DNA of 64,000 nt from Actinernus sp. WN-2022 (taxonomy: Eukaryota; Cnidaria; Anthozoa; Actiniaria; Actinernidae): assembly GCA_030867875.1 (NCBI GenBank), contig JAOWCC010000577.1, positions 148,606,344-148,670,343 of the forward strand, given 5' to 3'. The notes beneath the pieces were generated by a model that saw only the letters and a program-made list of their open reading frames with translations, ran no database searches and was not told the origin of the DNA. Each line of letters starts with the position of its first letter. Position 1 is the stretch's first letter. The translations under genes were made by a program, and so were the position numbers. Below are positions 6,952 to 64,000 of the stretch, piece after piece.

Positions 6952-7021
6952 ACCGCCTCCCGGTTAGTTCAGTGGTTAAACTCCGGTCTATCGAGCGGGA
7001 GGTCGCGGGTTCAAACCCCGG

Positions 7022-7060
<39 letters not shown>

Positions 7061-7172: not shown

Positions 7173-7247
7173 CTCATTAAAGAATTAAAGTTGTAATAGG
7201 CCTCAGTTGGCAGGAAACAGTCATGTCCTTGTATAGTACTTCGTTAA

Positions 7248-8931: not shown

Positions 8932-9080
8932 GGCCGTCCCTTCATGTAGGACGACACGAATTGCTACCAAATTGTATTCTATTGTATTGTATTGTGTTGC
9001 GTTCTATTGTTGTATTGAATTGTATTCTATTGTATTTTTGGTAAAAATTCGTGTCGTCCTACATAAAGGGATTGCCCGTG
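8932..9080. mobile_element. Fold-back element with TATTG microsatellite loop
   Basis: The inverted arms read tgtaggacgacacgaatt on the left and its complement aattcgtgtcgtcctaca on the right. The loop between them is a degenerate (TATTG)n run. It is probably a MITE whose loop became a microsatellite. Confidence 0.7.
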
Positions 9081-9758: not shown

Positions 9759-10364
9759 TTATATTTGGGACTTGAATATTTCTAGTCCAGCCACGCCATT
9801 GTCCCTCAGATGTCTTTGTATCCCCACACATAGTTGATATAAAGTGTTCGGCGGATATTCTCCCCCTCCTTTCTTCCGAACTTCGTATACAAATTTGCTC
9901 AGCCAAAAGCATAGTTCAAAGTCACACAAAGTATGAACAGTATTGACTGATGGGGCGAAAGAAAACTGATCACTAGAGCTATATGTTGAAGAGCGTTGCG
10001 CTCTGTAGCCCATTCATTCCAAACATTCAGAATCCAATTAGTTACTTTCTTCGTATTCTCTGGAACTCGGTCTTTGTTCAGCTCTAACATTACTTCATCT
10101 TCAATAGCTTCAATGTTTCTTGGACCATTTCCCTTCGCACAACCAGCACTCGAGTTTGTATCCTTATCCGTTTGTGCCAATTCTGCAGGACACTCTTCGA
10201 AATTAAATAAATTGTCGACTATTTCTTCTACCGTAAGATCCACATTTTCCGTCGTTGGCTTTCGTGCCGTCGATTTGAAACAAGGCTTCCAGGTCACAGG
10301 ACGGGTTAATTGAGTCCTGAAACTTATTTTGGGTGAGAAAAATATCCTCGTCACTATCAGCCAT
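9759..10364 (-). pseudogene. Crypton-type (DUF3504-like) recombinase-derived ORF remnant
   Basis: On the minus strand three reading frames in succession carry pieces of one protein. It starts at 10364 with MADSDEDIF, continues in another frame with a TKKVTNWILNVWNEWATERN segment, then in a third with LSKFVYEVRKKGGGEYPPNT and LYQLCVGIQRHLRDNG. These strings match what I know of the N-terminal half of the tyrosine-recombinase-derived DUF3504 proteins (KIAA1958/ZMYM/QRICH1 group and Crypton elements). At least two frameshifts and a terminal in-frame stop, with no catalytic C-terminal half, mark it as a decayed copy. An ordinary gene with undetected introns is less likely. Confidence 0.6.
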
Positions 10365-32800: not shown

Positions 32801-35800
32801 ATACGGACGTAGTACGGTCCATTCAGGTACGGCACAGCTACAGTCCTGCCGTATTTATTGAGTGGATTTCGTACGAGTGGGCAAGTTTCGGCAATAACTT
32901 ACGGTATGGTTACTTTACGGCATGCTGTGACGTTGAAATGGTTTCCCTATTGCTTTTGTCTTTCTGATCCAATCAAATTACATAGTTACGGTACAGTAAG
33001 TGGCAGTACGGTTACGGTAAGATTACGGTAAGATAACGGTAAGATTACGGTAAGATTACGGTAAGATTACGGTAAGATTACGGACATGCCGTATGTTTGT
33101 TCTACTCATACGAAATCCGCTCTATTCACCTCATACGAAATGTTCTCTATATATGACATACCGTAACATTGATAATGTGGATCAATCACGGTTTCTGAGA
33201 AACGTTAACCCCCACACTTCACCCTACCTTTAATGGTTAATCATTAATAGAATGGTGCATACCCAAGGGAGGGGTGGGTAGAGACCTAACCCTAACCTAA
33301 CCCACACTCCTCCCCCACACTTCACCCTACCTTTAATGGTTAATCATTAATAGAATGGTGCATACCCAAGGGAGGGGTGGGTAGAGACCTAACCCTAACC
33401 TAACCCACACTCCTCCCCCACACTTCACCCTACCTTTAATGGTTAATCATTAATAGAATGGTGCATACCCAAGGGAGGGGTGGGTAGAGACCTAACCCTA
33501 ACCTAACCCACACTCCTCCCCCACACTTCACCCTACCTTTAATGGTTAATCATTAATAGAATGGTGCATACCCAAGGGAGGGGTGGGTAGAGACCTAACC
33601 CTAACCTAACCCACACTCCTCCCCCACACTTCACCCTACCTTTAATGGTTAATCATTAATAGAATGGTGCATACCCAAGGGAGGGGTGGGTAGAGACCTA
33701 ACCCTAACCTAACCCACACTCCTCCCCCACACTTCACCCTACCTTTAATGGTTAATCATTAATAGAATGGTGCATACCCAAGGGAGGGGTGGGTAGAGAC
33801 CTAACCCTAACCTAACCCACACTCCTCCCCCACACTTCACCCTACCTTTAATGGTTAATCATTAATAGAATGGTGCATACCCAAGGGAGGGGTGGGTAGA
33901 GACCTAACCCTAACCTAACCCACACTCCTCCCCCACACTTCACCCTACCTTTAATGGTTAATCATTAATAGAATGGTGCATACCCAAGGGAGGGGTGGGT
34001 AGAGACCTAACCCTAACCTAACCCACACTCCTCCCCCACACTTCACCCTACCTTTAATGGTTAATCATTAATAGAATGGTGCATACCCAAAGGAGAGTGC
34101 GTGGGTGGTTTCCCAGAAACTGGGATTGAGCCTAAAATATTATGGCTTTTCCATTACTTTAGCTCTTGCGTCAAGATATTGTTACGAGCACTGAACGGCT
34201 TCTTCCACAGCTAGCACAACCCATTTTCAAAAATAATTGTTTTGTTGTTATGAGTACGTTATTTCATGAAGTTTATAACGATTGTATCAAATAAAGATAG
34301 AAATTGATGATATTTGAAAACGGATATTCCAGATATTTCAGCACGCAGCCAGCCGATGTTCGAAGAACACATGTGTCCTTGCCTTAGTCTGCAACGTCTT
34401 ATATTCGGCTGTAATACAGTTCACGAAGCTAGGATTCCCCCATGTTGCATTGCGATCTTCGCCACCGTGACATCCTCGTCTTGCTTGTCCTAATATGGGA
34501 TACAAAGTCTGTGTTGTAGAAAACGTCTGGTACTTAAACTATCTATAGAGGCACAGATGACGTCAAAATGTGACGAGAATAAAACTCACGACACTCGGCT
34601 ATGTCTCGTGGAGTACTTGTTTGCTCTCATAACGTTTTGACGTCATCTTTGCTTCGACTGATTAAGCAAAAAAAATACACGGGGCTAAAATGACATATAT
34701 TTCTTGAATGGAGCATTCTGACATCGTACAATCGGACCGCTCACAGATAATTCCGACTGTTGCCTCTTAATCATAGATGAACTCGCACAAGTAGATCTGG
34801 TTGGCCAAGATCTAAGAACAAAACATAAACAAATAAAGAAAGGAGAATTACAGATATGTAGAGAAAAACAGACATATGGTATGGAAACCTTGAGCCTTTC
34901 TTGGACACGGCCTAGAGTTTAGCTCGTTGAAGACGGTCAGAGTCCAGTCTACATCAAAGTCTTGTTCAGGGTCGCACACCAAGTTGAAGCCTGACAACGA
35001 AATATACCTTCATGTCATTTTGTTATTGTAGTAATGTTGTTTTCTTTAACTTAGCTAATTTAGCTGGCTGAATAGTATGATGTTTTAGCATTCCTACCCC
35101 CTCCCCCTATAAACGTTACTCCCATATAAAAGTGATGGCGGGATACTCGTCGGAAATTTTAAAAGGAACCCCTAAAGGAACCAGAATCTCGTTCTGTGGT
35201 CATGGCTCAAATGCGTTTTAACCCCTACGAGGTACCAATCCCAAAACACAAAATCAACTGACATTTGATCCAAGTGCAATAGACTGTAAAAATACCAAGA
35301 CGTGAAGCAAGTTCAAGAGATCGTGCATTATAAACGATAATTTTATTTTCTAACAAGTAGTTCTTATCTTACTTTGAATATCCTAAAGATACCACGATAA
35401 TCACAACTATGGACGTTTCAAATTGAACCCCCTAAGTGGTACGCCTTTTATCCCTTAATAATAGTAACACAAAAATCTCACATCGATCTGATTGGCTAAG
35501 AGAAGTGCAATTTCTTTGAAACACCAGTGCAAAATTTTGAAACAGATTTTTAGTAAACATGTAAACAAAATTATTCACAACTGAATGACATTTTCCGACT
35601 ACGGTACTGATGCTAACATTGGAATAATCGAACCTTTTACAGACTTTGAACAACTATTGTAAAATGTGAATATTTTATATACATTTTACAACCTTTGTAA
35701 TATGTTTGTGAGTGTACAATTTTAGAGACATTTTGCAAACATTTGAAATAGTTCTTCAGCGTCTGAATTGTTGAATTTTTCCAGTGTAACAAGCTACAAA

Positions 35801-38800: not shown

Positions 38801-41800
38801 ATGTGTTATGTATGTGTTATGTATATGTTATGTACATGTTATGTACATGTTATGTATGTGTTATGTATATGTTATGTATATGTTATGTATGTGTTATGTA
38901 TATGTTATGTATATGTATTCTGAATTCTTAATGCGCGCGTCAAGAAGAGACGATACGTACCTACTTGTGGGATTTGCTGTCTCTCTAGAAAAAAAGAAGA
39001 AAATATCAGGTTATAGTAATAAATAATTGTGTTTAGAATGCAATGAGAATGGTCGAGTTAAGAGTGTCACACTGCTCTTTTTTAATCGTACTTCAATTGT
39101 CCGATTTAGCTTGTACATTTGTTGTCCCAATTCAGGTCACCTGACTTTTCCCTTGATTAATATTTTTCTGTATCCCAAGAGGTAATGCGCAAATTTTAAA
39201 TCTCGGGAACAAAGCACTGAATCCTCTGGAGAGCTGTCACATGATCTGAACTGGGACACCAAATCTACAAGCTAAATAGGTCAATTCGCCTCTAGAACAA
39301 CAAATGCCGAACTAGTACGATCTGTGATGTTCTTCTTCGACTATAACCAACAATACACAATGCTTCAGATAATAAAATGCGAACTGCTGAATCTAACACT
39401 GTTGGAATATCAACACTAGTATTCATAATGAGACAACAAAACTGGGACAAAGGACGTTTGGTATAAGGTTTAAAGTTTATTTGATGCTGTTTTATATTTA
39501 TAGATTAAAACCATTATCATGACCCTTAACAGCAACGCGCGCACTTTACTTTCAAACCCATTTACAAAAGTCACGTGATGGGGTCGTACGTGTTTGACGT
39601 TAGCTAACTCAGCCATTAAGATTTTTATCATATGGTCGCCGTTTCAAATGGCAAAACAGCAAGCACAAAATCGAGAAGGGTAGGCCGGGGAATATTTGGC
39701 TCGAGGTTATGACGTATGGAGCGCAGCGAAACATCAAGGAGAAAAATCGAGCAGGGTCGGACGGCTTTTTCCGGCCCGTTCACGTCAAACACGTACGGCT
39801 CCCATCATGTGACGTTCGTACATGGTTTTGAAAGTAAAGCGCGCGCGGGGCCATACGGATCATGATAATCAGTAGTACTTATTAATAAAACAGTATCGTA
39901 AGGTGACGTAATCAAGAAGCTCGCTGGCAAGGTAATGCCAGAACTGATAAATCCGAGATTACGAATAAATTTGGAAACAAAAATTACTTACTGTCATTTA
40001 CTGGAGCTATCTTGCTACGGACGAGCACTAACTGGGAACGAACGCCAATGGATCGAGCCTTGACTACGTTGCAGTCCTCTTTACTGTGGCATTGCACTGA
40101 ATAACATGAATGACCAATGAGAAACGCCACATTGCACTTCGAATCCTTGCAGCATAGCTGCAAACAGGAATCCATGTCTGTGGCTTTCGGGCGAAGTCTA
40201 AAAATTCCCGCCTTTTGTCCCTCGCTAAGCGTGACGTCGTGTTGAATGGCGCCATGTTTACACCTCGAGCCCTTCACGCGCTTCGAGATAGACGGACTGG
40301 ATGTAGTCACTTGTAGTCGCGTGCCAAATTTGGCAGGAACGTTTCCCGCCTTAGATTTTACTCTCAGAGCCCTGTCTCTGACGACGAATGTTATTCGTGG
40401 ATTCAAAGATGAAGGATGAGCCGGTCGTACTTTACAAAGATTTAAATCACTGCAGTGTAAAGTGTAGCAAGTCAAGCCTAGCATCAAAGACATGTCACAT
40501 TCCTCATCAAGGCAGCAAAACGTCACGCACGTGCCCATATTTTTGACTTTACCATAGTCTGTAAAATCGCCGGATTTCAGTCCAGCAACTAAAGTCTTGT
40601 TATATAAAATCCCACTAGCTCTGCAGTTGGATTTCTTGTGTCCTGCTAAAGGATTATTTACACTCATGCTAATTTCCGAAGAAGAGTTGATCCTTTCGGC
40701 GATTGTACTGAAGTTTTTTGCTCGTACTACGTTCCCGGCTTTGCCAGGAATTACAGACGACGTTGGAATGCTCAAATCGAATTCAGTTCCCTTTTCATTA
40801 CTCAGAAATGATTTTCCTTTATGGACGACTTTTCCATGAGGTTTTGAAGTATTGCTGAAATCCTCTTTAGTTCTTTCCATATGCGATGAAGAGGTATTTG
40901 CATTCATGAATCTCGAGGTGTTGCCCAAAGCTTCAAAACTTTTCTCAAGGAGTTCGTTCTCTGATAATTCTTTCTTCTTCGATGCATTTTTCGCAGCTTC
41001 ATTCATGCTTGATGCTGCTCCGTGTGAACTGATTGAAGTATTTATTTTCTTAACAGGGACATTCATCGCATCAGACAACGCGTATTTTCTGTCAGACGAA
41101 TTTCCAGCAGCATCGTTATTTTTATCGTTCTCCACAAAAGTTGTCACGTTTTTCGAAGTCACCTTCTGCACTGAATCCACACTCTTTGTTCTGTTGGCTG
41201 TTTTTTGGAAGGCTTTTATTACTGTTAAATTCGTTGACACATTCCCATGGTTTGATCCTATCAAAACTGTTTTATTGACCGTTGATTTTGCTTCCAACAG
41301 ATACTTTGACTCATTCCCATTATTTGGTCCTATCAAAACTGTTTTATTGACCGTTGATTTTGTTTCCAACAGATACTTTGACTCATTCCCATTATTTGGT
41401 CCGATCAAAACTGTTTTATTGACCGATGATTTTGCTTCCACCAGATACTTTGACTCATTCCCATTATTTAATCCTATTAAAACTATTTTATTACCCGATG
41501 AACTGTTTACTTTATTTGCGAATGAAAAGTTCTTCGAATTGTCTACATGTAGCGATACATTCCCAGTCGCTTTCTTTATGCCCTCAGAGGTTCTGTTTCC
41601 ATCTGTCGAATTGACAAGCGTTCTGTTTTTATGTAACAGCACGTTTCCACTTTTTGTCGAGTCCATTTGTTTTGGTATCGATGTATTGGTAACTCTTGTG
41701 TTATTCTCACGTGTTAAGGCATCCCCTTTTGAAGTTAGTACTGTCTTTGCTTTTCCTCCATTTGTCACCTTAGACTTATCACTCCCTTTAGGCGCCATCA

Positions 41801-44800
41801 TATCCAATATGGTTCGACCTGCGTTACCAATTCCCCGCTTGACATACGTGACGGTCACCAAAAAGCGTGACTCCAAAGCCGGCCGTGTCTGACACAATTT
41901 AGCACTATAACATTGTAAATTATAACACATACTATTGGCCATAAAGGCTACGTCGCAATCGGAGTTCTGGCAGCAGATGCGCGCGCATGCGCGTGGGCTT
42001 ATAACGCTGCCAACCTTCGTATAGTCTCCGGCAGCGATACCGCCCCGCATGGTCACGTGACTGATGGTCGAGGTGGCGACGCATTGCGTCGACCTTCCCT
42101 CTGCACATGAGGCACTAGCTGAAACGGGAAACAACAAGACTGGTATTTTATTCGCTGCTTTTAGTTTTACTTATAACAAGTCGCATACATTTTTCCTATG
42201 TCTGTACTCTTACTGATCATAGTTTAAGTCATAAAAGGTGGCAAAACTCAAGTGGAACTGAAAACGAGCGTTTGCGATTTGATTTTTTCACTAAAACTTG
42301 ACTTGTGAACTGTGCTTCGAGTTACAAATCACGTCCCCATCATTATCTGTACACTTATTGATCATGACCAAGATGAGCCAACCAGCTGAAAGCGAGAAAT
42401 CTGGGTCAGTTTGTTCGATACTGTTATTGATTTGCATCGTTCCTTGAAGGAAGATCGCAACAGGCCATGGTAAATAACCATCTTTCGAAACCTCTGGAAA
42501 TCAAATGCGGTGTATCAATCATAGGCCCGTTGCGGTTTCTTCTTCGTATAAATCCCCAATAGACCTTTATCACGTAGCGGCCATTTTGGCTACAAACAAT
42601 AGCTTTTCCACTTCCAGCCTCGTCTCTGTGTCGAGTTTGGAAGTGCAAGAACAAAGGATTTTATTCTCCTGGGCCGCAACATGACCGCTGCGTGATAAAG
42701 GGCTATAGACCGACTTAGCTTGTACATTTGTTGTCCCAATTCAGATCATGTGACAGCTCTCCAGAGGATTCAGTGCTTTGTTTTCAATTAGAGAAATTTG
42801 TACATTTCCTCTTAGGATGCAGAAAAACAAGAAATTATTACTCAAGCGAAATTTCAGGTGACCTGAATTGGGACAACACATGTACAAGCTAAATCGGTCA
42901 ATTGCTTACAACATTCTACCCCGAATTTATATGCAGATGATACCACTGGTATCCACAAGAAATCATTAGCAGTAATTATTGACCAAGCTAAAATGAAAAC
43001 GATTTCATCAGCCCTTGGTGTCATTAGGCGCGCTAAGCCCTTTGTATCGCACTCCATGTTATTGACATTATACCATTCACTAGTGCTCCCACACTTTGAC
43101 TATTGTTCCGGGGAAATTTAAATAAAATACTTAATGATAAACTGCAAAAGCTTCAATTTCAAAATAGAGCAGCAGAATAATTACGGGGGCAAACAATAAA
43201 GAAACATCATCAGACATTTTGAATGATTTAGGATGGCATAATATACCTACGACTAAGAAGAGAGGAAAGGAAAGCAATTAAATATTAAATTAAAAATCGC
43301 CTTGCGCCTGATTATCTAAGTTCCTTCTTTCTCGTAGTTGCAATGTGCACAATCAGGCGCGGATCCAGAAAAAAAACTGACCGGTTTCCGACTTCCCAAC
43401 TCAAACTCCAAAATTGGAAATTTTACTTACTTACTTACTTTTTTTTTCGAAAGTAAAGCAAGTGCGTCCGCAACAAATGAAGATCAATAGAGATTAGATA
43501 AATCATAATGTATTAATAATATTCACCCGACCTCAAGATCACTAAATATACGTTGCCTTGCACATTACGTTAGATTTAATTCCCTTGAAAGTGCTACAGT
43601 TACACATATAATACACAGTTTTGCCTAATCGACTGGCTCAATTAATACTGTTAAAGTACTGTTTCTAATCAGTGCTAGTTTCGAAAAATTACCGATCCTT
43701 TCCCCCTAGATTCGAAGTAGCACTAACGGAGATGTTTTAGGCGACGACCTTAGAAATTAAAGGCGTTCAAAGAAAGCGAAAATGCTTTCACCATACACCA
43801 ATACCTAGCCTATACCTATATATCACCTGTAACTAGCTGAAACGTAAATCTTTATTGTAAGTCGTGAGTAATTGCCTCATAACACCTCGTCTCGACTATT
43901 TTAGCCACTTAATATTGCTTCTTTTATTGGAGACATGCGTATTCGTGAACCAGTCTAACCAAGCGGGCGCGGCGAATCATGTCAGATCAGTTCTAATGAA
44001 ATAATTGTGAAAAGAGAGGAAACACATGAAAAACTAACATGACGCCGATATCAAAATGTCCAAAATTGTTGTGATAAAAATCATTAGATTACAGACATTG
44101 ATGGTTACCGTATATACGGTTGTCACCCTAGATTTAATGTTACCAAGCGGTCGGTAATTGACGTTACTCTTCCTAATAAATCTGGTGCTGAAACTGTCAC
44201 TTTGGGGTATACCTTTTTACTGCTCTTATGACGATATATTTCTAACTTCGTATATACATCAGCCTGTCATTACTATCAATACACACATTGAAATTATATC
44301 CAAATCGGTTAAAAGCCCGGATTAAAGGTTTCTGGATGCTTTGATATTTGGAACCAGTGAGCTCGTTACCACCCGAAGTGTTCACCTATTATCGAACAGG
44401 TTGCTCAGCAGGTAGACAGAAAGAAGCTATTTGTCAAATTTAGACACCTTTAAATCCACCTTTTACACGGCGCTATCTTGAAAAACTTCCAGGGTTCGGT
44501 TGTTCGAAGCAAGGCTAACTTTATTCCAAATCTGTCATTGTAATCGGGGTTAGCCGCATTTAACCCGGGGTAGTGCTTTCGCTTGTTTCGGACAACAGGA
44601 CCTTGGAAGACACTTTCTCGCTTGTAATCAGTAGTCTATGTAGCTTTACCAAAATTATTTGTGAATTGGATGCATTTCTACTAAATAATGGTTAATTCCT
44701 GTTACCTCAAGCGTTTTGCACACCGTGGTTCATATGATGCAACACAAGCAAAATCACTAACAAACGAAATAAATAAATAAACAATTTTCAGTGTTGAAGT

Positions 44801-50853: not shown

Positions 50854-51041
50854 CTATTTTCTCTTCTTGAGTTCTTCGAATCGCCGTGTCAAGTCATCAA
50901 AGTCCACATCCTCCCCTCCTCCACTGTTGGCTCCCGGGACACTGTTAGAAGGTAAACTGTTGCTTGGTACGGAGGGGAGATCAGGGAAGCTGGGACCTAC
51001 TGGTGGTGCTGATGGGGTTGGTACATGTGGGTTCACTGATG
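50854..51041 (-). CDS. IST1: IST1 last exon: Pro-rich linker, MIM motif, stop
   Basis: Acceptor ttctaatctgcag, phase 1, 188 nt to the TAG. It encodes TSVNPHVPTPSAPPVGPSFP ... and the acidic-then-basic MIM-like end (DFDDLTRRFEELKK). Its first bases and acceptor are the template of the 81-bp array immediately upstream. Confidence 0.95.
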
Positions 51042-54000
51042 CTGCAGATTAGAAGGGATATCAATCAGAAATAAGAAGTGGAGGGGAGATCAGGGAAGCT
51101 GGTACAGATGGGTTCACTTATGCTGCAGATTAGATGGGATATCCATCAGAAATAAGAAGGGGAGGGGAGATCAGGGAAACTGGTACAGATGGGTTCACTT
51201 ATGCTGCAGATTAGAAGGGATATCCATCAGGAATAAGAAGGGGAGGGGAGATCAGGGAAGCTGGTACAGATGGGTTCACTTATGCTGCAGATTAGAAGGG
51301 ATATCCATCAGAAATAAGAAGGGGAGGGGAGATCAGGGAAGCTGGTACAGATGGGTTCACTTATGCTGCAGATTAGAAGGGATATCCATCAGGAATAAGA
51401 AGGGGAGGGGAGATCAGGGAAGCTGTTACAGATGGGTTCACTTATGCTGCAGATTAGAAGGGATATCCATCAGAAATAAGAAGGGGAGGGGAGATCAGGG
51501 AAGCTGGTACAGATGGGTTCACTTATGCTGCAGATTAGAAGGGATATCCATCAGAAATAAGAAGGGGAGGGGAGATCAGGGAAGCTGGTACAGATGGGTT
51601 CACTTATGCTGCAGATAAGAAGGGATATCCATCAGAAATAAGAAGGGGAGGGGAGATCAGGGAAGCTGGTACAGATGGGTTCACTTATGCTGCAGATTAG
51701 AAGGGATATCCATCAGAAATAAGAAGGGGTGGGGAGATCAGGGAAGCTGGTACAGATGGGTTCACTTATGCTGCAGATTAGAAGGGATATCCATTTGGAA
51801 TAAGAAGGGGAAGGGAGATCAGGGAAGCTGGTACAGATGGGTTCACTTATGCTGCAGATTAGAAGGGATATCCATCAGAAATAAGAAGGGGAGGGGAGAT
51901 CAGGGAAGCTGGTACAGATGGGTTCACTTATGCTGCAGATTAGAAGGGATATCCATCAGAAATAAGAAGGGGAGGGGAGATCAGGGAAGCTGGTACAGAT
52001 GGGTTCACTTATGCTGCAGATTAGAAGGGATATCCATCAGAAATAAGAAGGGGAGGGGAGATCAGGGAAGCTGGTACAGATGGGTTCACTTATGCTGCAG
52101 ATTAGAAGGGATATCCATCAGGAATAAGAAGGGGAGGGGAGATAATGAGGGAAGCTGGTACAGATGGGTTCACTTATGCTGCAGATTAGAAGGGATATCC
52201 ATCAGGAATAAGAAGGGGAGGGGAGATCAGGGAAGCTGGTACAGATGGGTTCAATTATGCTGCAGATTAGATGGGATATCCATCAGAAATAAGAAGGGGA
52301 GGGGAGATCAGGGAAGCTGGTACAGATGGGTTCACTTATGCTGCAGATTAGAAGGGATATCCATCAGAAATAAGAAGGGGAGGGGAGATCAGGGAAACTG
52401 GGACCTACTGGTGGTGCTGATGGGGTTGGTACATGTGTATTGTATTGTATTGTATTTTTGTATTGTATTTCATTGATTCGCCACTAATAACATTTACAAA
52501 GTAAATAATACAAAGTAAAATATACAATGGTTAGTGGTGAGGAAGCCTAAAAAGAAACCATTAGGGGCTTACATGTATGTAAATTTAGGCTTCCTCATAA
52601 AATTAAGTGGATAGATATAACGAGTAACTATGACGAAATGGCAGGTTTTTTTCCTCGTTATTTTTTTGCGTTACATGTAATCTTAATAATAACTAATCAT
52701 GATTAATATTTACGAAAGAGATAAGATTTTAAATTTACTTTGAAAAGAGAAAGGGAGGCGGAGTTAATAAGTTCAGTCTCAAGTGAATTAAGTAACTTTG
52801 GACCTTGAAAGTATACAGAAAACTGCCTTATGTTGGTTTTGCATAAGGGAGTGCGAAAAGCTGGAGCATTTCTAGTGTTGTAATTATGGACTAAAAACAT
52901 GTTGTTGAATTTGATTGGCAAAATACCATTTTTGTAGGAGTACATAAATTGTCCTATCTGTAACAAAAGAATGTCATGGAATTTAAGTATGTTTAGTTCT
53001 TTGAAAATGGGATCAGTGTCTTCATTAGGATTCTAATGACACGTTTTTGAAGTAGTACCTATGTGGGTAGTAGTACTTTATGTGGGTTGACTGATGCTGC
53101 AGATTAGAAGGGATATCCATCAGAAATAAGAAGGGGAGGGGAGATCAGGGAAGTGGGACCCACTGGTGGTGTTGATGGAGTTGGTACAGAACTAGAACAT
53201 AGTGCCACAATGTCAAAATAGTGGCCGTAAAGTGTATTTTAGTGTGTTCTCAAGGGTAAACACGTCGAAATATTCAAAGTTGAAGTTATTATTGCTGTTG
53301 TGATAGTCAGTGTAGCCTGTAAAACCACATGACCAATGACATCATCGTTAATTATGACATACCATCTCACCAAACATCTTCACAACAGAAGGCAAGCTAT
53401 TTCATATCTGGTATCCAGGGTAATTGAATCATGAAAGTGGAATTGGTTGGTGCAGGATGGACAATTTACCTGTTTTTGTGCTATTCTCAACATTTCAAAA
53501 TTTAGAAATATTTCTTAAAACAAATGATAAGGGGCACTTAAGTCAAAGCCACTGTGTAAATTTTGGCAAAAATGAAAACAGTTAGAATGCCCAGCCTTGC
53601 TTTCATAATTCAAATGACCCTGCGATGGGTTCTACATGTGGTCCATAGTGCCTAACTCTCTTACTTATACATGTACTGTATGTAATAAATGAGAAACACA
53701 TAATTTACTCACTTGGGGGACCAGGTATGTCTTTCCTTGGGAGCCCTGGATCGCCAGGGTAAGGGGGAACCTATATTTTTGAGATACTGTTAGTCTACAT
53801 GTAGTCTGTATTGTTTATGTTTGTGTATATGAAGTTCAACATTACACCAGGAGCCCATTACCTGAGGAGCGTCCATCTCCCATACTTGGTCTGTGAGTCA
53901 GCACATTCCCAGATCAGGTTATTTTTAGAACACCCGAGGTGTAAATAAATCCCATACCCCAAGCAGTAGGCTGATAAAATTTTCCAACTTTTTGACAATG

Positions 54001-57000
54001 GCAAGGTTTTCTCATTGTACGCCATAATCATCTCTCTTCATAAATCATTAGGAAGCATTGTTTGCCTAGTACACTGCGGCATGAAATTACTGTTCACAAG
54101 GCTTCTCATTCATGTTTTTTTGTGGCTAAAAATAGCCTGATCTGGGAACACGCTGACTCACAAATGCATAACAGATAGACGCTACTGATTATGTACATGT
54201 AAGTATACAGTGTAGCAAAGCAAAATTAATAAGAAAACAATGTTGATGGATATAGTGATCCTAAGGAAAGCCACAGCCAAATTTTAATGTTACATATACA
54301 TGTAGTGAAACCCCTCTATACGATTTTTATTAATTTAGTTATTTTGCTGCCCTGGAGAAAAAAAATATGTCTTGAGCCTTGAGGAAATGAAGAACACAGA
54401 TATCTATTATGTTGAATAATACTTTAAACTGAAACTTCCAAACAAACTAATTAAGGACCTACAATATGTACATGTGTACCAGTGCAAATATACATGCAGG
54501 AACATTAATTTTGGCAGTGGCCTAAATGTAGCTATAGTTCAATATACATGTAATGTACCTAGAGTTATTTTGTTAGAATTTTATACTACATTGTATCTGT
54601 CAATTGTCCTACAAGTAGCTAGGGTTAGATCAATAGGACAATAATTTAGTAGGGCAGTACTAAGACAGTAATTCTGCACATTTTGCAAAAACATCACACA
54701 GAAGGAAACAGAAAGTAATCGGACCTAAATCCTGTCACATTGAAAGTTTATTGGACATTTCTTTGCAAAATGAGTGGTCAGTCTGTTTTCCAACGATCTG
54801 AATCCCTGTCTACATCATGGTTACCTTTTTGTCCATAGGGTATAGATCTGCAGGGCCTGGGATTGGAGGATGTCCTACTGCAGTTGGTGGGGGGTAGGGT
54901 AAATTTCCACCAACCTGAGGGAAAACATGATCCTGGAGCTATTGACTGACTTACATGACTTTTTTTACATGTACCTGTACAGTGTATGTCAATACAACAA
55001 ATAATATGCTATCATGCTGAAACTGTATTTAGTCTATAATTATAAGTACTGTATGCATGTCTGCAAGTACATGGATTGTATCATATTCGGTACATACACT
55101 TAAGATGGCAGCAATGTCTTCAACTTTGAAACATTGCATGGAATACTAAAAATGACATTAAAAGCAACCAACAGGAGAGCTACATTTAAATGCAGGGCTT
55201 TCAAAACAAGCTCTGCCAGCTGCCAGCTTGTTTTGAAAGCCCTGCATTTAGATGCCTGTACCTGTTTAGAAGCTTAAGGCACTGCAATGCAAATGAATGA
55301 CTTTAGTGAACAAGCAGTACATTGTACATATTGCCCACAACCTTTGCACTAAAGTATAGATCTACATGTACATGACACAAATACAGCGTGTACAATGAAT
55401 ATTGAATAAGAAAAGTCCCTTACATGTAAAGGGTGTGGTGGGTAAGCAAATCCTGGATTGGCACCGACAGTAGCAGGCACACTAGGCATGTTATTTATTG
55501 AACTACCTCCACCACTGTTATACCCTTCAAATCCAATGCCAAACCCACCACCTCCTGAGCCACCTCCCCCTGATCGGCCTCCTTTTATGTCATCCAGGTC
55601 GAGCATTTCCTCACACTGTAGCAAAAATCACAACCATCACATAATTACATACAGGAATAAACTAGTTACAGTAGTAACATAGTAGTTTTTAGTTGGCTAT
55701 AAGCATCTAATTCGGTTGTGTATTTTTACTTGTCATTCGTATTCTATCGAACTTGCCAAAATAAGAATGTGGAGTACAAATACACTGCCAGCTGTATTAG
55801 ATTCTTAGCCAACTAATACATTGTGAGCTGGTTATTATTTTAAATTCTACCAAGAAACAAAATTTTCTTTCCATAATAACCAAAAACCTTGTGTGCTTGC
55901 TGGATAAATGGGATTTACCATGGTCGACTGGTGATGGAAAGCCATTTGACTGTAACTATCTGAAATATGGTCTCATATTTGGTGTGTCCTTGTGCATATT
56001 TCCCACATTCTTGGTAGAATTATAAATGTAGGGCTGGTTTTAGTACAACTGTACATGCAAGTTAAAAAAATTGTACTTCACTGACAATGTTCAGGTATAT
56101 ATACTATGTAAAGCAATAAAGTATGAGTGCATGATTTAAATTAATAAATACAAGAACTGTACTTACAGCCATGGCAGTTGAGTCAGGTTCAAATGCCACA
56201 TTATGACTCCGGGCTATCTCTATCAAGTATCTCTCAACAAGGATTTTTGGTGGAGGCTTAGGACTCAACTTATGTATTAACTGAAAATAATTATATAATT
56301 ATAAAAAGATGAAATCAGAAACATTCAATGACAACATAAAATAGAAAAAATATATAAACAACTTTATTTACATGTCTAGTCTTCTAGTTGACCCTACATG
56401 TCAGTAATCCTGTACCGCTCGAGACCTGTATTCTGATTGCACCATTATAATACTGTAGCTCTATTGTTTTCGTACTGCACGTTCTAAAGGTTAGGGTGTT
56501 TTGTATTGTTGGGTAAGCCAATGCTGTGGCTCGTTTCGAGTGGTACAGGAGGGTCTACTAAATGGGGATTATAAGATGCTTAATCTGGTGTTTATTCCCT
56601 AACTTTGGATCTCACACTTTTGTGCTCTACATGTAGTTCTTACAATACGGTCTCCTCTCCTGCTCTAGTGTGCATGACTGTAACGCAATATGGTGTCAGG
56701 CAAGGACACTTCAGGGACATGGATTCCTTGATTGAATCGGAATTGGGTTGGTTCTTGGGGAGGGTCAGGAAAACCAGAGAACCCGGAGAAAAACTCTCAG
56801 AGCAACACTGTGGCGAGATACCAACAAACTAACATACATTTTTTTTTTTATGCTGTGTTGCAGGAATTGAACTTGAGGCAAAGAGGTGAGCATCACAGTG
56901 CTTACTGCATATAACCACTATGTCACACAAAAAATGTACATACATGTACATGTAGAAACATACACACACACAGTCTTTTCACTGCAAGAAATCAACTGAT

Positions 57001-60000
57001 CAGGCAATTAATCCAATCAAGCACAATATTGTTTGGAAGTACATGTAGTACAAAGATTATGGCCTGCCTTACCCTCTCATTTACTGTGTCATTTGCATTG
57101 GTGCTTGCTTCATGTGAAAATTTCTTTCCATACTTCAGACTGAGATGCTCTGCAATCTAAACATTGAAAAGAATAGGAAAAAATCATATAATATTATATG
57201 CAATATATGTCTGACAATAAATGGCCCAGTTCTAAGGATGTCTGCAGGTTCTTACATGTATACATGTATATATGTTGTCTGGTGCATGTTGCATTGTGCA
57301 AGTTGCATAAAAAAATACCAACTCCAAGACAGACATGCAGTGTACGAGTCTTGTCCATTCCGCTTCCGTTAAAAAGCTTCCCATGCGTCTTTGCAGCAGG
57401 TGGGCAGAGTTAGTTGAAGGAAAGCAAAACATGTCAATGTGGGAATCGTTTGCGAAGTAATTAGAGCGAGAAGCGAAGATTTCCGAGAGCAAGCAGCGAT
57501 GGACGCCAGAGAAGAGGGACTGGAGACGTGCTGACTTAGACAAGAAAGATAATCGGAGGGAAACAAAGGCGAATGATAAGCAAACATCAGGACTGTTTGC
57601 TGGAGCGACGAAAGAATCTCCATCATATACAAGCAGGATGGCAGAGAAAAAATGTCTTATCCACAATTCCACGAATCATACGCTACAAGAGTGCAAAAGG
57701 TTCGAAAGCATGCCAGTGGATGAGAAAGAGAAGGTCGTACAAGATTACAAACCCTGTTTGTCTTGTTTGTTACCAGGCCACTGCCTGAGCAAGTGTCGAA
57801 GCAAGGAAAAGTGTAAAGTTGAAGACTGTGGCATGCTCCATCACACAACTGTACACAACGTCGACCTAAGGTTTATCGGAAGATCTAAGGCTAGAAATCC
57901 TCAAGGTAATAGTGATCCAGAAACCGCCTCTCAGAATAACGAAACCACTGCAACGAATCTAGCGGAGGAACCGCACGAACAGCATCATGGAGCATCTTAC
58001 ACGGGTTGTGAGATAGAAGGATGTGCACTGGTTGAAGTTTTACCCGTAGTCATCTTTGGAGGAAAAGAGAAGCTAACAGTAACGGCAATGCGTGATTTCC
58101 GGCTGCAAGACGATGCTACAGTTGTAATAGATGAAGAGTTTAAGCGCAAACATTGGGTCTTGAAGGCAGGGAAGTAGACCTAGAGCTACAAGGAGTGAAC
58201 GCACCGAAAACTGTTGCGTAAAAACACGTCAAGAAATGCTGAATTGCAAGAGTTGGAAGAGAAGAGACAAAATACTGTTTGCAAGATGTCAAGACAATGC
58301 CAAATTTGAGCGGACCTGCTCAGAAACTTAAATGGACGAAGATAAAACAACGGTATCCCCATTTTACGGCACCTTGATCTGAAAGACACGGACACAGGTC
58401 CAGTACAGCTGATAATCAGAACGAACAACTCTGACTTAATTCTACCAAACCAAGTAGTTAAACCGAAACGTGATCCAGGCTCCGAACGTGTCCCATACGC
58501 TGTTGAAACTCCTTTGGGATGGGCGGTCACCAACTCAGGTTGCCAGCCCTTGTGATAGAGTAGTATCACAGTATGGCGCGTTCAAGGTGTACGAAAGAAA
58601 TGTGAGTGAAGATGAAGATCTGAAGCGATTGGTTCAAGCACAATCCGAAGTAGAAATCATGGGCGTGGTAAAGCTAACAAATCCAACCCGTTCAATTGAG
58701 GACAAACGTGCTTTGTCACTGATGGAGACAACAATATTTACTGGTAAGATGGAGGGCGAAGACGCTTACCAGTCAGGACTGCTCTGGAGAGAATGTGATC
58801 CATCATTACCAGATAACTATGGCATGGCCAAACAGCGTTTAAAGTCCTTAGAGAAAAGGTTCGAGAGAAACCCCGGAATTAGAGAAAGATATGCTAACTA
58901 AAATCAATTAAGGATGACGTTGAGAAAGGTTACGTCAAGAAGTTGAGTGAGGAAGAAGTACAGATACATGTAGATAGCAAAGTCACATGGTATCTACTGC
59001 ACATATTCATAATAAACCCCAAGAAGCCTGATCGCCTTCGTCGAGTGTATGATGCATCAGCAAAATACATGGGTCAGAGTTTGAATGACAAGATTTACAC
59101 GGGTCCAGACCTATTTTTGTCATTGTTTGGCATTATGCTTAGATTTTGCGAGGGCCGCATCGCGATGGTGGCGGATGAAAAGGAGATGTATCACATGTTA
59201 CGATTATCCGACCAAGACAAACCAGCAATGAGGTTTCTGTGGAGCGATGCACCTGGCAAAGAACCTGATGTATATCAGTTTGAGAGAACAGTGTTTGGAG
59301 AAGTGTCTGCTCCTTCTAGGGCAAACTATGCGATGCAGCGAAATACAGATGACAACGGAGAAGACCTACCACTACGAGTCAAAGCAGTTTACAAGCACTT
59401 CTATATGGACGATGGTTTACCATCAACAAATTCTCGACAAGAAGCTATCGAGATGCGAAGGCAGATGACTGAATTACTGGGATTTCGCCTGCATAAGTGG
59501 CTAACGAATGACCCAGAAGTTCTAGCTACGATCCCTGAGGACGAAAGATCGCCACGGTTCCTAGAATTGAGCAAGAACTGCCAACAGACAGAGCGTTAGG
59601 TGTCACATGGGACGCCCAAGAAGATGTGCTCAAGTTCTCTGGGCTTTCGGGAAGTCCAGGTACCATGAAACGGCAAATCTTGAGTCAAGCTTTCCCTATA
59701 TATCTGGGATTCAAGAGGGCTACTTTTGTCATTCTCAATCAGGAGCAAGATTATACTGCAGAACCTGCATCATACAAGGAGTGGCTGGGATGAAGAGCTG
59801 AAAGAAACTGAACTTCGAGAATGGCATGACTGGTGCAAGGAAGCAGAGGAGTGCAGACTCATTGCAGGGAAAGGACGTGTCACACCCCTGAAGGCACAAT
59901 CTATCTGTACGCTTGAGCTTATGGGAGCTCTTATAGCGGCACGGCTCGCCGAGACGTTTAAACTACAGAATCGATGACAAAGATAGAGAGGATAACGTTT

Positions 60001-63000
60001 TGGAGAGACTCTTCAACTGTCCTGCACTGGATTCACCAGACAAGTTCTAACTACAAAGCATTCGTTGGTAACCGAGTATCGGAGATTCATACGATAATGA
60101 GTGATCTGGAGACCACACTGGGGGCGGGTACGGTGAGTTGGAGGTACGTACCTATGAGGGACAATCCGGCCGATGATATTACGTGAGGCTTACGCCCCAC
60201 AGAACTTACAACGGGCTAACGCTATGAAGATGGACCGAAGTTCCTAAGTAAGTCGGCAGAAATTTGGCCAAAGAACAGAGTAGGCACTCCAAAGGAGGAA
60301 GACGATGAGAACGAGAGGAAGAGAGAGAGATGGGCTGGGGCATCTCAAGAAGCTGAGCCTGTCTTGGGATGGAAGAGGTATTCGTCGTTGTCTAAGTTGA
60401 GAAGGGTGACAGCGTACGTGTTTTGTTTTGTAAATAATGTACAAGCGAGAAAGGATGTGTGTCTAACAGGACCACTTTCCTCAGCAGAATATAAAGCTGC
60501 ACATAATTATCTCGTGAAGAAAGTGCAAGATGAATCATTTGGGGATGAGTTACGGAGTCTGCATAAAGATCAAGAAATCTCTAAGCAAAGTAGGTTGAGG
60601 TCCCTTGATCCAAGAGTTGAAGATGGTTTCCTTGTCGTTGGAGGGAGATTGGAAAGGGCACATTCTCTACCGTACAAAGCACAACACCCTAAAGTTATGG
60701 ATTCAAGACATGAGCTTGCAAAGCTTATAATCAATGAGATGCACCATGTCTACCACCACCCACCAATTGAACAATTGCTGAATCAGATTCGCCAGGAGTA
60801 CTGGATAATCCACAGGCGGCAAGCAATACGGAACATGAAGTTCAAGTGTAATTACTGTCGTCGACAGACATTCAGGCCGCAAGAACAGCAAATGGGAAAT
60901 CTTCCTGAATGCAGAGTCGAACCAGGGGTGGTGTTCAGAAATACTGGAGTTGATTTCTTCGGACCGATGTTAGTCAAAGAGAGACGGTCTGAGGTCAAAA
61001 TTTATGGTTGCTTGTTCGTGTGTATGAGTACAAGAGCGTGTCATCTGGAACTGGTGGATAACTTGTTGACGTATCATTTCATTATGGCACTCAAGAGATT
61101 CATTGCGTGGCGCGGAAGGCCGCAGAGGATCTATAGTGATAACGGTACAAATTTTGTACGAGCCAACAACGAGTTACATACAATGTAAGTGCTTCAAACA
61201 GCATGATCAAGAGACTGCAGAACTTTTGCGTGCCACGTAAGATAGAATGCACCACACTTTGGAGGTGTGTGGGAGCGTTTGGTGCAGTGTACGAATAAGA
61301 CGCTGAAGGCGGTGTTGAAAGACAGTGTCGTCCCTAAAAAGGCACTACAAACTGCTCTAACAGAAGCAGAGGGGATCCTCAACAGTAGACAGATTACTCA
61401 CGTATCGGGCAATGCGAATGCTATCGAAGCTCTGACGCCAAACCATTTACTACTCCTGCGTGCTAACCCCATCTTCGAAGATGCTGTTGTTAGTGACAGA
61501 GAAATAAATTCGAAGAAACTTTGGCAACAACGCACAAGCACTGGTGAATTTCTTTTGGAGGTGCTTCATTAGAGAATATATCCCAAGTCTAACAGAGAGA
61601 AGCAAATGGAGGGATAAAAGACGGAACTTGAGAGAGGGGGACATATAGTGCTGGATGGTTAGAGCGGTTACCGTGCATATTCAGTACGGAGAGTACAAGA
61701 GGCCCGTGACAAAGCTTTGTCTGGACAAAGCTTTGTATGCTGGAGGAAGCGGAGGGCTGATATCATCTCGACACATTGTCTCGACTGGAGTTGGGGATGC
61801 CCATCCCGCTTCCAGCACATTTATTTCCGGTTAAAAAACTAACTTCCGTTACTAAGAAGCATTGTAATTTTGATTGACAAGTTACGCGCATTGCTAAGAG
61901 GTAGAAGAGAACTTGTGTGTGGCGAAGGTTAGTATAGAGTCAGATCGAGCGAGTGTAGGGCATTAGAGTTGTAAAAGTCCACTAGTTGTGCTGACTTTAG
62001 AGGCTTTTCGCAAGTGTTGAGTTATAAATAAAGGGCATTTACTTCAAACTACATGTAGGTCTGAATAAGTCATGATCTTGAGAATTAATGATGCAAAATG
62101 AAGCATGCACAATGCAACTAACACCACCTTTTTTTAATAGCTGTTATATATGTATACAGATCATGGAGCACACCATATACATGCATGTACAATGTACATT
62201 TGGGTCTGTAACACTACATGTATATACTGTAATACGTCATACACATACATAACTCTATTTATACATGGACATTCCATCAATTACAAATTGCTTTTCGTGA
62301 AAGCCAATGTTAAAACTGTGTTTACAATTATACATGTAATAAGGTTGAGGATATTCACAATAGTGAATAAAAATATATAAAATCAATACAGCTGTATGCG
62401 ATAAAATTATTTGAATACAAACAAGCCATACCACTTTGAATTCTTGAATGTCAGACTGCAGTCTAGGGGCCACCCATATGAGACTGGTTACTGCCTCAAT
62501 CATCCCCTCATCACAGTACCTATAATGTGTGAAACAATCACTTAATTGTTTGACTAAACAGCACAATCATAAACACATTTCACACTGAAATCAAGAGTGA
62601 ACAAAGATGAAAGTGGCTTTCTTACAATTAATAAATCATTCGAGTTTTATTAATTTTAATAGTATATTAATATACTGAGCAAAGTAAAGTAAAGAAAACA
62701 ATTACCATAAAATGTGTTTTTAATACTTAAACAATCGTACAATCATCTACATGTACATATATTTGTATCACTACTTTTTGACTAGATAATATTACCCAAC
62801 AGTTGTGCAGGAAAGGTAAAACAAGATATCAAGCTGAGCAGTGTATCGAGGACAAGACAAAAAAAATATACACAAAGGTTTCAATAATTATGAGGCTATG
62901 GGGTAAATTAAATTTATACTTTTCTCTCTTAAATTTAATTTACCTCGGAGCCTCACAATGAATTTTTTGTGCATGACAAGTAAAGCATAATAATTATATT

Positions 63001-63500
63001 GAAAGTGGGATATTACATTTGTACATGTAAAAGTTTTATTCATTTCTATGTCCACAGTCACAATACTACTTAAGGCCTTTTGCAGGAAATTCTCCAGTGT
63101 AGTTCAGGTGTATTTAGACTCATTCTATTAATGATTTTATGTCAAAAATGGTTAGGGTTTTTGCAATGTTTGGGTTAGGCTTTTGAAGGTGTGTGTTAAA
63201 AAAATTGAGAAATGAATCATATTTAATGAACCACTGGAGGGGGTATTCTGAAAGTACTCCGTTCTACAATGCAAGTGGTCATGCATGGTTAAAATGTTTC
63301 ATCAGCAAGTCAAGCATATTTGAGTAGTTTAATTTGTCTTATTGTTTTAAAAGCTAGAAAAATAAGTGAACACTGATCCTCAAGAGAAACACTTACGACA
63401 TAGTCTCTATTAATCCAAATCTTGCCAGAAGGAGATCACAGTATAACTCCAAAAGTTCCAGAGCTTCAACCAGATAGTCCTCCCTGATGATGTGTTCAAC
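50854..63500 (-). CDS. IST1: IST1, ESCRT-III-associated factor (5' end off the window)
   Basis: Eight minus-strand exons with consistent phases give about 305 residues. The conserved core reads VEHIIREDYLVEALELLELY, CDLLLARFGLIETM, EAVTSLIWVAPRLQSDIQEF, NERLIHKLSPKPPPKILVER and YLIEIARSHNVAFEPDS, which match the IST1/DUF292 domain almost word for word. Then a Gly-rich and Pro-rich linker and a C-terminus DVDFDDLTRRFEELKKRK, the MIM-type motif that binds MIT domains of VPS4 and LIP5. IST1 acts in the cytoplasm at ESCRT-III filaments in endosomal sorting, tubule scission and cytokinesis. Roughly the first 55-60 residues, judged from the usual animal protein, lie beyond the right edge. Confidence 0.95.
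51042..52436 (-). repeat. 81-bp minisatellite built from the IST1 last-exon acceptor, 16 copies
   Basis: The plus-strand unit ggggaggggagatcagggaa gctggtacagatgggttcac ttatgctgcagattagaagg gatatccatcagaaataagaa recurs at 81-bp steps. On the minus strand each unit holds ttctaatctgcag followed by cataagtgaacccatctgta, a copy of the IST1 last-exon acceptor and first exon bases with an internal deletion of about 27 nt. Relative to the true exon (catcagtg), the unit has cataagtg. Sixteen acceptor copies fall between 51.12 and 52.34 kb. Confidence 0.95.
52436..53045 (-). mobile_element. 5'-truncated LINE tail inserted in the array
   Basis: A minus-strand ORF of 87 codons (52966-52703) with upstream continuation contains LLQIGQFMYSYKNGILPIKF, YNTRNAPAFRTPL and TNIRQFSVYFQGPKLLNSLE, the usual C-terminus of CR1/L2-like LINE ORF2. 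The 3' end is an ATACAATACA-type tail (52436-52470). A tatgtg-like sequence appears on both sides. It splits a copy of the IST1-derived repeat. Confidence 0.85.
53085..53190 (-). repeat. Displaced copy of the IST1 last-exon start
   Basis: Beyond the LINE tail, the sequence tgtgggttgactgatgctgc agattagaagggatatcc...gggacccactggtggtgttgatggagttggtac resumes the array and resembles the true exon more than the 81-bp units do (catcag kept, the accccactggtggt part retained). It is the oldest-looking copy. Confidence 0.85.
53713..53770 (-). CDS. IST1: IST1 exon: Pro-rich linker
   Basis: 58 nt, phase 0 to 1, between aatatag and gtgagt. It encodes VPPYPGDPGLPRKDIPGPP. Immediately upstream of the last exon in the spliced order. 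Confidence 0.85.
53890..54164. mobile_element. Inverted-repeat MITE in IST1 intron
   Basis: tgtgagtcagcacattccca...ggttatttttag and its near complement ctaaaaatagcctgatctgg...gctgactcaca pair across about 200 nt. Confidence 0.8.
54825..54914 (-). CDS. IST1: IST1 exon: Pro-rich linker
   Basis: 90 nt, phase 0/0, between ccctcag and gtaacc. It encodes VGGNLPYPPPTAVGHPPIPG and PADLYPMDKK. Confidence 0.85.
55187..55250. repeat. Perfect 26-bp hairpin with 12-nt loop
   Basis: The arms 55187-55212 (taaatgcagggctttcaaaa caagct) and 55225-55250 are exactly complementary. It could be a tiny fold-back or a hairpin-RNA precursor. No further support from sequence. Confidence 0.8.
55424..55615 (-). CDS. 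IST1: IST1 exon: Gly-rich linker
   Basis: 192 nt, phase 0/0, between gctacag and gtaagg. It begins CEEMLDLDDIKGGRSGGGGS and continues Gly/Ser-rich to PGFAYPPHPLH. The DLDDIK piece corresponds to the short acidic stretch that follows the IST1 domain. Confidence 0.9.
56167..56280 (-). CDS. IST1: IST1 exon: end of IST1 domain
   Basis: 114 nt, phase 0/0. It encodes LIHKLSPKPPPKILVERYLI and EIARSHNVAFEPDSTAMA, the highly conserved C-terminal part of the helical core. Confidence 0.95.
56735..56930 (-). repeat. tRNA-derived SINE, family B, copy 3 (worn)
   Basis: The plus-strand order attgggttggttcttgggga...aaaccagagaacccggagaa...ggcgagataccaacaaact...gaattgaacttgaggc mirrors the family-B copy at 36.8 kb with more changes in the B-box. 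In an IST1 intron. Confidence 0.75.
57073..57156 (-). CDS. IST1: IST1 exon
   Basis: 84 nt, phase 0/0, between gtttag and gtaagg. It encodes IAEHLSLKYGKKFSHEASTN and ANDTVNER, matching the helix and VN(D/E)R turn of the IST1 core. Confidence 0.95.
57345..58177 (+). pseudogene. BEL/Pao gag end, zinc knuckles and degenerate protease
   Basis: A conserved gag piece (KKLPMRLCSRWAEL) is cut by a TAA at 57458-57460. The frame then stays open to 58177, with Cys/His clusters (C-LIHNSTNHTLQEC; C-LSCLLPGHCLSKC; CKVEDCGMLHH) typical of Pao gag zinc knuckles. It ends in the protease region LVEVLPVVIFGGKE, where the expected D-S/T-G active-site triad is absent. Inactive relic. Confidence 0.85.
58434..58901 (+). 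pseudogene. BEL/Pao pre-RT region (peptidase A17 type)
   Basis: PYAVETPLGWAVTN (about 58493-58534) in one frame, then SIEDKRALSLMETT and SGLLWRECDPSLPDNYGM in another, are the linker motifs between protease and RT in Pao elements. A stop and frameshift separate the two. Confidence 0.8.
58943..59599 (+). pseudogene. BEL/Pao reverse transcriptase fragment
   Basis: 218 codons covering RT palm motifs: RRVYDASAKYMGQSLND, LRLSDQDKPAMRFLW, FGEVSAPSRANYAM and the catalytic FYMDDGL box. The catalytic Asp pair is still present. The frame ends at a premature stop before the RNase H region. Confidence 0.9.
59779..60186 (+). pseudogene. BEL/Pao RNase H fragments
   Basis: Two frames: CTLELMGALIAARLAE (to 59977), and ITFWRDSSTVLHWIH through SWRYVPMRDNPADDIT (59974-60186). 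These are the E...D...D and N-P-A-D parts of the Pao RNase H. A frameshift lies between and a stop follows DIT. Confidence 0.85.
60364..61188 (+). pseudogene. BEL/Pao integrase fragment
   Basis: 274 codons. A zinc-binding region with H-H-V-Y-H-H and CNYCRRQT, then the catalytic core: GVDFFGPMLV (first Asp), YSDNGTNF (second Asp). A stop at 61186-61188 cuts the frame before the catalytic Glu. Confidence 0.9.
61267..61770 (+). pseudogene. BEL/Pao integrase C-terminus and tail
   Basis: AEGILNSRQITHVSGN and LTPNHLLLLR (61267-61572), the typical post-core region with the catalytic-Glu helix motif (E-x-x-LN-x-R), followed by a decayed stretch (to about 61770) where a GHIVL-like DUF5641 start can be read around stops. 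Confidence 0.8.
62432..62519 (-). CDS. IST1: IST1 exon
   Basis: 88 nt, phase 2 to 0, between attatag and gtatgg. It encodes YCDEGMIEAVTSLIWVAPRL and QSDIQEFKV, a hallmark helix of the IST1 domain. Confidence 0.95.
62893..62957. repeat. Short inverted repeat
   Basis: gaggctatggggtaaattaa and its near complement ttaatttacctcggagcctc form a 25-nt-armed hairpin in an IST1 intron. Confidence 0.7.
63397..63500 (-). CDS. IST1: IST1 exon (first one visible)
   Basis: 104 nt, donor gtaagt, acceptor cacttag. It encodes VEHIIREDYLVEALELLELY and CDLLLARFGLIETM. In the usual animal protein this segment starts at about residue 57, so one or more upstream exons with the initiator Met are beyond the window. 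Confidence 0.95.
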
Positions 63501-63736
63501 CTAAGTGTACAGTATGCATGTTAAAATAATTATAGGATTATTATGTGAACCTAAAGAAATTAAATTTAGCAATATGGCAAAAAAATTTCTGAAGTCCAAA
63601 ATATGTACAAAATGTATGTACATGTATATACAGTAGTTAGTTAATTTAAGACAAATAGCTGATATTACAGTGGCGTCTATGTTGTGGGACAATTTTGATG
63701 ACTGGTTCAAATATTTTTGAACCGGGGCAAATATGT

Positions 63737-64000
63737 TTACCTGTGAGCTTATGTTCACTGACTGGTCAGTCTCTTTTTGTTGGGGTATTAGCTATTGTAT
63801 TTTGATAAATACAGACAAACTCACATGTTTACCTGTGAACTCTAGTCACCAATTAGCTCTATAAACCCGTTGTTTACCTGTGATATTATGTTCACTGACC
63901 GGTTAGAGTCTTTTTTATATTGGGGTAAGCTATTGTATTTTGATAAATACAGACAAACTCACATGTTTACCTGTGAACTCTAGTCACCAATTAGCTCTAT
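63737..64000 (+). repeat. 138-bp direct repeat, two copies, running off the edge
   Basis: The segment from ttatgttcactgac through gggataaatacagacaaactc-like sequence to gaactctagtcaccaattag occurs twice, offset by 138 bp (acatgtttacctgtgaactc at 63823 and 63961). The array may continue beyond the window. Confidence 0.85.

Follow-up and report, generated by a model that had tools for sequence, protein, structure and literature searches.

Introduction

Minisatellites that extend across the intron-exon boundaries of protein-coding genes have been described in amphioxus under the name of 'mirages', with Adh3, BflGb6, and BflGb9 as examples in the sections of PMC3087553 available to us, and TnC as a further case in those of PMC3902484, which also mention similar imperfect repeats in PGBD5. 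On the basis of Adh3 data and globin RT-PCR, the former sections suggested that mirages do not interfere with splicing, and the latter state that the Adh and TnC mirages generated no aberrant mRNAs. In the accessible parts of this literature, amphioxus mirages are also reported to be unstable in length and somatically. Intron gain by tandem genomic duplication, in which splice signals are duplicated along with the segment, was proposed for mirages in the same portion of PMC3087553. Within the literature we searched, outside of which most subscription papers lie, no report of mirages beyond amphioxus was found; a paper on pines contains the word 'mirages' once in its accessible text (PMC13078855).

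The human CBS gene provides two further comparisons, both taken from an excerpt of PMC2630376. In the 844ins68 variant, the intron 7/exon 8 junction is present in duplicate, with a strong preference reported for the more distal of the two copies; the sites concerned are called donor sites in the excerpt, although the junction named and the title cited there indicate that they are 3' splice sites. A 31-bp VNTR of the same gene, c.1444_1467+7(16_21), occurs in 16 to 21 copies.

Here we describe an array over the last splice junction of an IST1 gene. It shares the hallmarks of the amphioxus cases: it is a minisatellite within a gene, it spans an intron-exon boundary, it abuts the authentic exon, and its units have kept the acceptor AG. 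We read it, with a probability of about 0.75, as a mirage-type minisatellite that is largely neutral and in whose presence the authentic acceptor is mainly used.

Results

The IST1 gene and its last intron

The window, by which we mean the whole 64-kb stretch of DNA analysed, carries eight IST1 coding exons on its minus strand, and tblastn gave two further N-terminal exon matches beyond the window edge. In gene order, the exons are as follows:

63397..63500, minus strand: IST1 coding exon, identified in part by tblastn of Actinia IST1; its N-terminal-side neighbours lie beyond the window
62432..62519, minus strand: IST1 coding exon
57073..57156, minus strand: IST1 coding exon
56167..56280, minus strand: IST1 coding exon
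55424..55615, minus strand: IST1 coding exon
54825..54914, minus strand: IST1 coding exon
53713..53770, minus strand: penultimate IST1 exon, placed by frame and phase of the joined exons; its donor CAA/gtgagt is the partner of the acceptors considered below
50854..51041, minus strand: last IST1 coding exon, with the authentic acceptor at 51041, placed by frame and phase and by 80% identity to Actinia tenebrosa

The joined exons encode 305 amino acids, lacking the N-terminus, and match the Pfam Ist1 domain (PF03398). Among the 120 matches listed of 1,699 in a protein search at E up to 0.001, the nearest relatives were the IST1 proteins of Actinia tenebrosa (70%) and Nematostella vectensis (66%), from which the host would be a sea-anemone-like hexacoral; a search for IST1 relatives in viral contigs found none. 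The donor after position 53713 and its phase, as given in a preliminary description of this DNA, were confirmed from the joined exons. The penultimate-exon acceptor (53770) has 6 pyrimidines in 15 positions, the lowest count among the eight IST1 acceptors examined.

Two other IST1 introns contain repeats of their own. Retroelement remains occupy 57461-61572 on the opposite (plus) strand, with several open frames; two of these were scanned and matched RVT_1, Integrase_H2C2, and rve, all below the Pfam curated cut-off, and we take the element to be BEL/Pao-like. A 138-bp minisatellite covers 63734-64000 and the first 633 bp past the window edge, starting about 230 bp upstream of the IST1 exon at 63500.

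A minisatellite that repeats the last acceptor

The last IST1 intron found contains the minisatellite, which extends to 51019 and thus ends inside the last exon. The elements of this region, all on the minus strand, are:

53080..53188, minus strand: distal, unshortened junction unit that carries the CATCAG form and the decoy acceptor 53096, from the acceptor search and copy alignment
52432..53058, minus strand: LINE-like dispersed repeat, 5'-truncated, with an ATACA-type repeat at its end, from genome matches
52379..52429, minus strand: stretch of the first array unit that resembles the exon, retains the 28 nt deleted from the short units (see below), and still reads PTPSAPPVGPSFPDLPS, from tblastn with Actinia IST1
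51019..52401, minus strand: 81-bp minisatellite, 17.0 copies, 96% matches, from TRF and unit alignment
52340, 52259, 52178, 52094, 52013, 51932, 51851, 51770, minus strand: first 'exon' base of array decoys 1-8
51689, 51608, 51527, 51446, 51365, 51284, 51203, 51122, minus strand: first 'exon' base of array decoys 9-16

A search of the whole minus strand of the window for the acceptor core CCCTTCTAATCTGCAG, allowing up to three mismatches, returned 18 copies, 15 of them exact and three with one mismatch: the true site at 51041, the 16 array decoys from 52340 to 51122, and the copy at 53096. As sequence matches, these repeats are far beyond chance. From -20 to +3, 14 of the 17 decoys are identical to the true acceptor, CTGCAG is kept by all 17, and the decoys retain the AG, the pyrimidine tract, and branch-like motifs. 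The preliminary description held that 16 units of 81 bp carry the same acceptor and that the spliceosome meets them all before the true site. The order stood for all 17 decoys, and so did the number of array decoys; the claim of sameness required correction, since the 13-mer ttctaatctgcag is exact in 13 of the 16, with one mismatch in 52259, 51608, and 51122, and the spacing is 81 bp in 15 units and 84 bp in one, which has a 3-nt insertion.

By hand count, a complete unit consists of 71 nt of exon start and 38 nt of intron end, and the 81-bp unit consists of 43 nt of a shortened exon start and the same last 38 nt of the intron. The difference is a deletion of 28 exon nucleotides between two CCA triplets, plus a few other changes; in addition, the 81-bp unit carries CATAAG where the exon has CATCAG. 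The 28 missing nucleotides are A/C-rich and contain CAGCACCACCAG, a kind of sequence that can serve as a splicing enhancer. This architecture is directly observed, as are the reading frames that follow from it: joined to the donor at 53713, every array decoy (16/16) gives ACA TAA, the immediate stop already claimed for them, and the acceptor at 53096 reads TSVNPHKVLLPT and then stops.

The fifteen 81-bp units each differ from their consensus at 0 to 4 positions (16 of 1,215 sites overall, 1.3%), and their mean pairwise difference is 2.5%. The retention of all decoy AGs carries no information on selection, as the chance of zero AG-base losses in 17 decoys is about 0.64 at a divergence of 1.3%. 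Assembly errors are common in tandem arrays and a single assembly is at hand, so that an array that is an artefact, or that has the wrong copy number, has to be considered; we regard this as highly improbable, as the units are individually distinct, one of them has its own 3-nt insertion, and the array runs into the last exon at one end and into the LINE-like repeat at the other. The existence of the array is fairly secure, its exact copy number less so. Searched against the genome (1.39 Gb, 1,772 contigs), the array gave two matches, both at this locus.

The strand opposite the array is open for 285 codons (51619-52476, plus strand) with a 27-residue repeat. It is open because 81 is divisible by 3, and this frame is most likely a by-product.

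The dispersed insert and the distal copy

Of 512 candidate matches in the genome to the repeat at 52432-53058, which we take to be a LINE, 40 were scored; one of these is the insert itself, and the remaining 39, a lower bound on its relatives, show 87-89% identity. The insert is 5'-truncated, since five examined copies have common upstream sequence that is absent from it. The preliminary description had placed a 17th acceptor copy beyond a LINE: the copy at 53096 and a dispersed repeat in between were both found, and the name LINE is an assignment made without a Pfam match, none being obtained for the 109-aa frame of the insert. Measured against the five copies, the private branch of the insert amounts to 0.041 substitutions per site.

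The insert lies between two unshortened copies of the junction, and the first junction duplication is therefore older than the insert, which is as firm as the architecture itself. For the shortened unit, the sequence pattern points to either of two histories: it would have spread after the insert arrived, or uniformity among its copies has been maintained from then on.

The copy at 53096 is the acceptor closest to the donor, at 616 nt by coordinates. By hand count, it shows no differences in the 57 nt around the acceptor and five in the 53 flanking nt (Fisher p = 0.023, with the boundary picked post hoc). The unchanged segment could be a sign of use or of gene conversion. One explanation built on it is that the distal copy alone is a selected alternative acceptor, of which the array is a neutral by-product; its proximity to the donor and its unchanged acceptor segment are what one would expect. 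We consider this very unlikely, because the support amounts to one post hoc test, zero changes in 57 nt are not rare when about 2.3 are expected at the insert's private rate of 0.041, and gene conversion from the array would look alike. Moreover, the gene strand contains neither AATAAA nor ATTAAA between 53712 and 50300; the first signal of this type past the IST1 stop codon is at 49685.

Decoy use would remove the MIT-binding tail

The last exon encodes a 62-residue tail that aligns with human IST1 tail chains in PDB and is 80% identical to Actinia tenebrosa IST1 across 61 residues. Across the 14 aligned sequences, namely 13 relatives and the Actinernus IST1, DFDDL and RRFE.LKK show no variation. 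According to passages of PMC9477494, human IST1 has two MIT-binding elements, type 2 at 316-343 and type 1/3 at 344-366, which jointly bind many MIT proteins, including VPS4B, LIP5, SPASTIN, and CAPN7. Loss of the first element lowers LIP5 and CAPN7 binding more than 10-fold, and the second is the source of most SPARTIN binding (same passages).

The stretches that align to both elements sit within the single last exon of the gene described here, so that joining any decoy would drop both. The earlier claim that the C-terminal exon and its MIM would be lost through decoy use holds accordingly, with the addition, from the human tail alignment, that two elements are concerned. Being intact and conserved, the last exon must be spliced in, which implies that the authentic acceptor is used.

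What distinguishes the true site from the decoys

Since 14 of 17 decoys equal the true acceptor from -20 to +3, no score over this interval prefers the true site. A crude count gives 11 pyrimidines in 15 positions for the true site, and hence for the 14 identical decoys, which equals the highest value among the window's eight IST1 acceptors and exceeds the 6 of 15 of the penultimate exon. A TTGAT branch-like motif 20 nt from the junction is present at the true acceptor only (1/18), and the substitution that makes it is private to this site, as a different base occupies this position in all other units, the distal copy included. In classical duplication experiments, the donor-proximal acceptor can win when exon sequences are equal.

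Concealment of the decoys by RNA structure was considered and not supported: folding of four array units (51041-51364) gave z = +1.27, and 90 of 100 shuffles folded at least equally well. The array RNA is not unusually structured, and the decoys are thus not visibly hidden by folding. No processed IST1 copy that would record the choice of junction was found in the genome, as a query of the last three exons gave five matches, all at this locus.

These results bear on a functional alternative in which the decoys are appreciably used and yield an IST1 without both MIM elements; array length would set the ratio, and the short product might compete with the full form when ESCRT-III assembles. Seventeen complete acceptors ahead of the true site, stops after every one of them (immediate or following TSVNPHKVLLPT), unremarkable folding, and the importance of the human tail elements for LIP5, CAPN7, and SPARTIN binding in the cited passages of PMC9477494 all fit such a scheme. 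Nevertheless, we judge it unlikely: in the accessible accounts of the published relatives, splicing is normal (mirages) or the downstream copy is favoured (CBS 844ins68), and truncated IST1 forms may be unstable.

Minisatellites are frequent in this genome

To place the array in context, we sampled 20 random stretches of 10 kb (200 kb in total) from the same contig and recorded TRF arrays with a period of at least 20 and at least 2.5 copies. The sample contained 41 arrays covering 8.2% of bases; one stretch (L004) gives 6,363 of the 16,397 array bp, and the density without it is 5.3%. L004 holds arrays at 5-3154 and 7008-10000, listed in that order as 34 bp x 92.6 and 40 bp x 72.9. The window itself has nine arrays totalling 4,272 bp.

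With ten coding exons counted, one of 18 IST1 junctions lies in an array, compared with about 1.0 to 1.5 expected; the expectation assumes random placement, takes no account of the purging of exonic arrays that selection would be expected to cause, and for the two exons beyond the window uses edges from tblastn only. In a genome this dense in minisatellites, one junction covered by an array is thus close to random expectation, and the placement of the array across such a junction does not clearly exceed chance. By the same token, further arrays across junctions are to be expected in this genome. An acceptor-like site equally good by crude count was present in 2 of 27 random arrays with a period of at least 30, and in one of eight window arrays, namely the IST1 array itself.

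Several other features of the window concern arrays or long frames. A 728-aa open frame at 39984-42170 (minus strand) has three KIAA0319_N stretches and a MANEC match, and contains a 72-bp minisatellite at 41234-41492 that is in frame and encodes 24-residue repeats. This minisatellite was examined as a candidate acceptor array and rejected: it is acceptor-like on the plus strand, yet lies inside the opposite-strand open frame. An 11-bp array of TTACGGTAAGA at 33012-33083 (6.5 copies) forms a row of donor-like GTAAGA motifs on the plus strand and adjoins a 103-bp array at 33209-34095; it was rejected as a splice-site array because, although donor-like, no exon was found touching 33012-33083. 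A 777-aa open frame at 30365-32698 (minus strand) had no Pfam match at E up to 0.001. Finally, a 39-bp array at 17894-18374 (12.3 copies, with a period that is also a multiple of 3) has several open frames on both strands.

Discussion

The mirage-type reading implies the following course of events. The IST1 intron-exon boundary (71 nt of exon and 38 nt of intron) would have been duplicated in tandem; one copy would then have lost 28 exon-derived nucleotides between CCA microhomologies and gained the TAA. Unequal exchange or slippage, the presumed mechanism, may have amplified the resulting 81-bp unit to 16 spacings, leaving an array that is now intronic and lies upstream of the authentic acceptor. 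The authentic site is probably preferred, plausibly because it has the sole complete exon downstream, is nearest the 3' end, and has the sole extra TTGAT. The short units, for their part, lack the A/C-rich stretch and with it a possible splicing enhancer.

On this basis, some leaky use of decoys giving IST1 without the MIT-binding tail is likely, though minor. The preliminary description offered two outcomes, an array silenced by its context or an array that tunes the amount of a truncated IST1; silencing by context is the more probable of the two, as it is favoured by the intact last exon and by membership in a published class reported to leave splicing undisturbed. Regulated truncation of IST1 is possible. 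A stronger version, in which copy number is a genetic dial, with each further unit contributing an equal rival acceptor so that longer alleles give more tail-less IST1, is doubtful, as is its lesser form, in which 53096 is conserved and used. If the dial were real, there would be heritable, and perhaps somatic, variation in the recruitment of ESCRT-III co-factors; more generally, were the decoys used, the length of a repeat would set the dose of the functional tail of an ESCRT-III subunit. The locus also amounts to a natural minigene, with 18 acceptors in one intron, of which 15 share the same sequence from -20 to +3, and IST1 junction counts could reveal which cues govern the choice: exon context, position, or branch motif.

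Compared with known systems, insofar as the accessible portions of the reports describe them, the IST1 array resembles human CBS 844ins68 in having a duplicated intron/exon junction with competing sites, and differs in scale: CBS has one extra copy, polymorphic in people, and IST1 has 17. The CBS VNTR, judged from its name, is likewise a minisatellite over an exon-intron boundary, on the donor side (1467+7) with a 31-bp unit, whereas the IST1 array is on the acceptor side with an 81-bp unit. Relative to intron gain by tandem duplication, it is an already existing intron that appears lengthened in IST1.

The likeness to amphioxus mirages is closer. In both, tandem repeats extend across the border between an intron and an exon of a protein gene, many units keep splice signals, and the authentic junction lies at the end of the array; in BflGb6, as in IST1, the unit joins the 3' end of the intron to the 5' start of the exon. 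The unit of 81 bp compares with 150-160 bp in BflGb6, 157 bp in BflGb9, and 10-72 bp in Adh3, and the 16 spacings plus a distal copy compare with 6 and 3 units in the BflGb6 haplotypes. Unlike the amphioxus mirages, the IST1 array gives an in-frame stop from every array decoy and has had one copy split off by a LINE-like repeat. The lineages differ as well, the described mirages being cephalochordate and the IST1 array cnidarian-like (Actinia 70%, Nematostella 66%). Taken together, the IST1 array would bring the mirage class, described in amphioxus, into a cnidarian-like genome, and its copy number exceeds that of the described globin cases.
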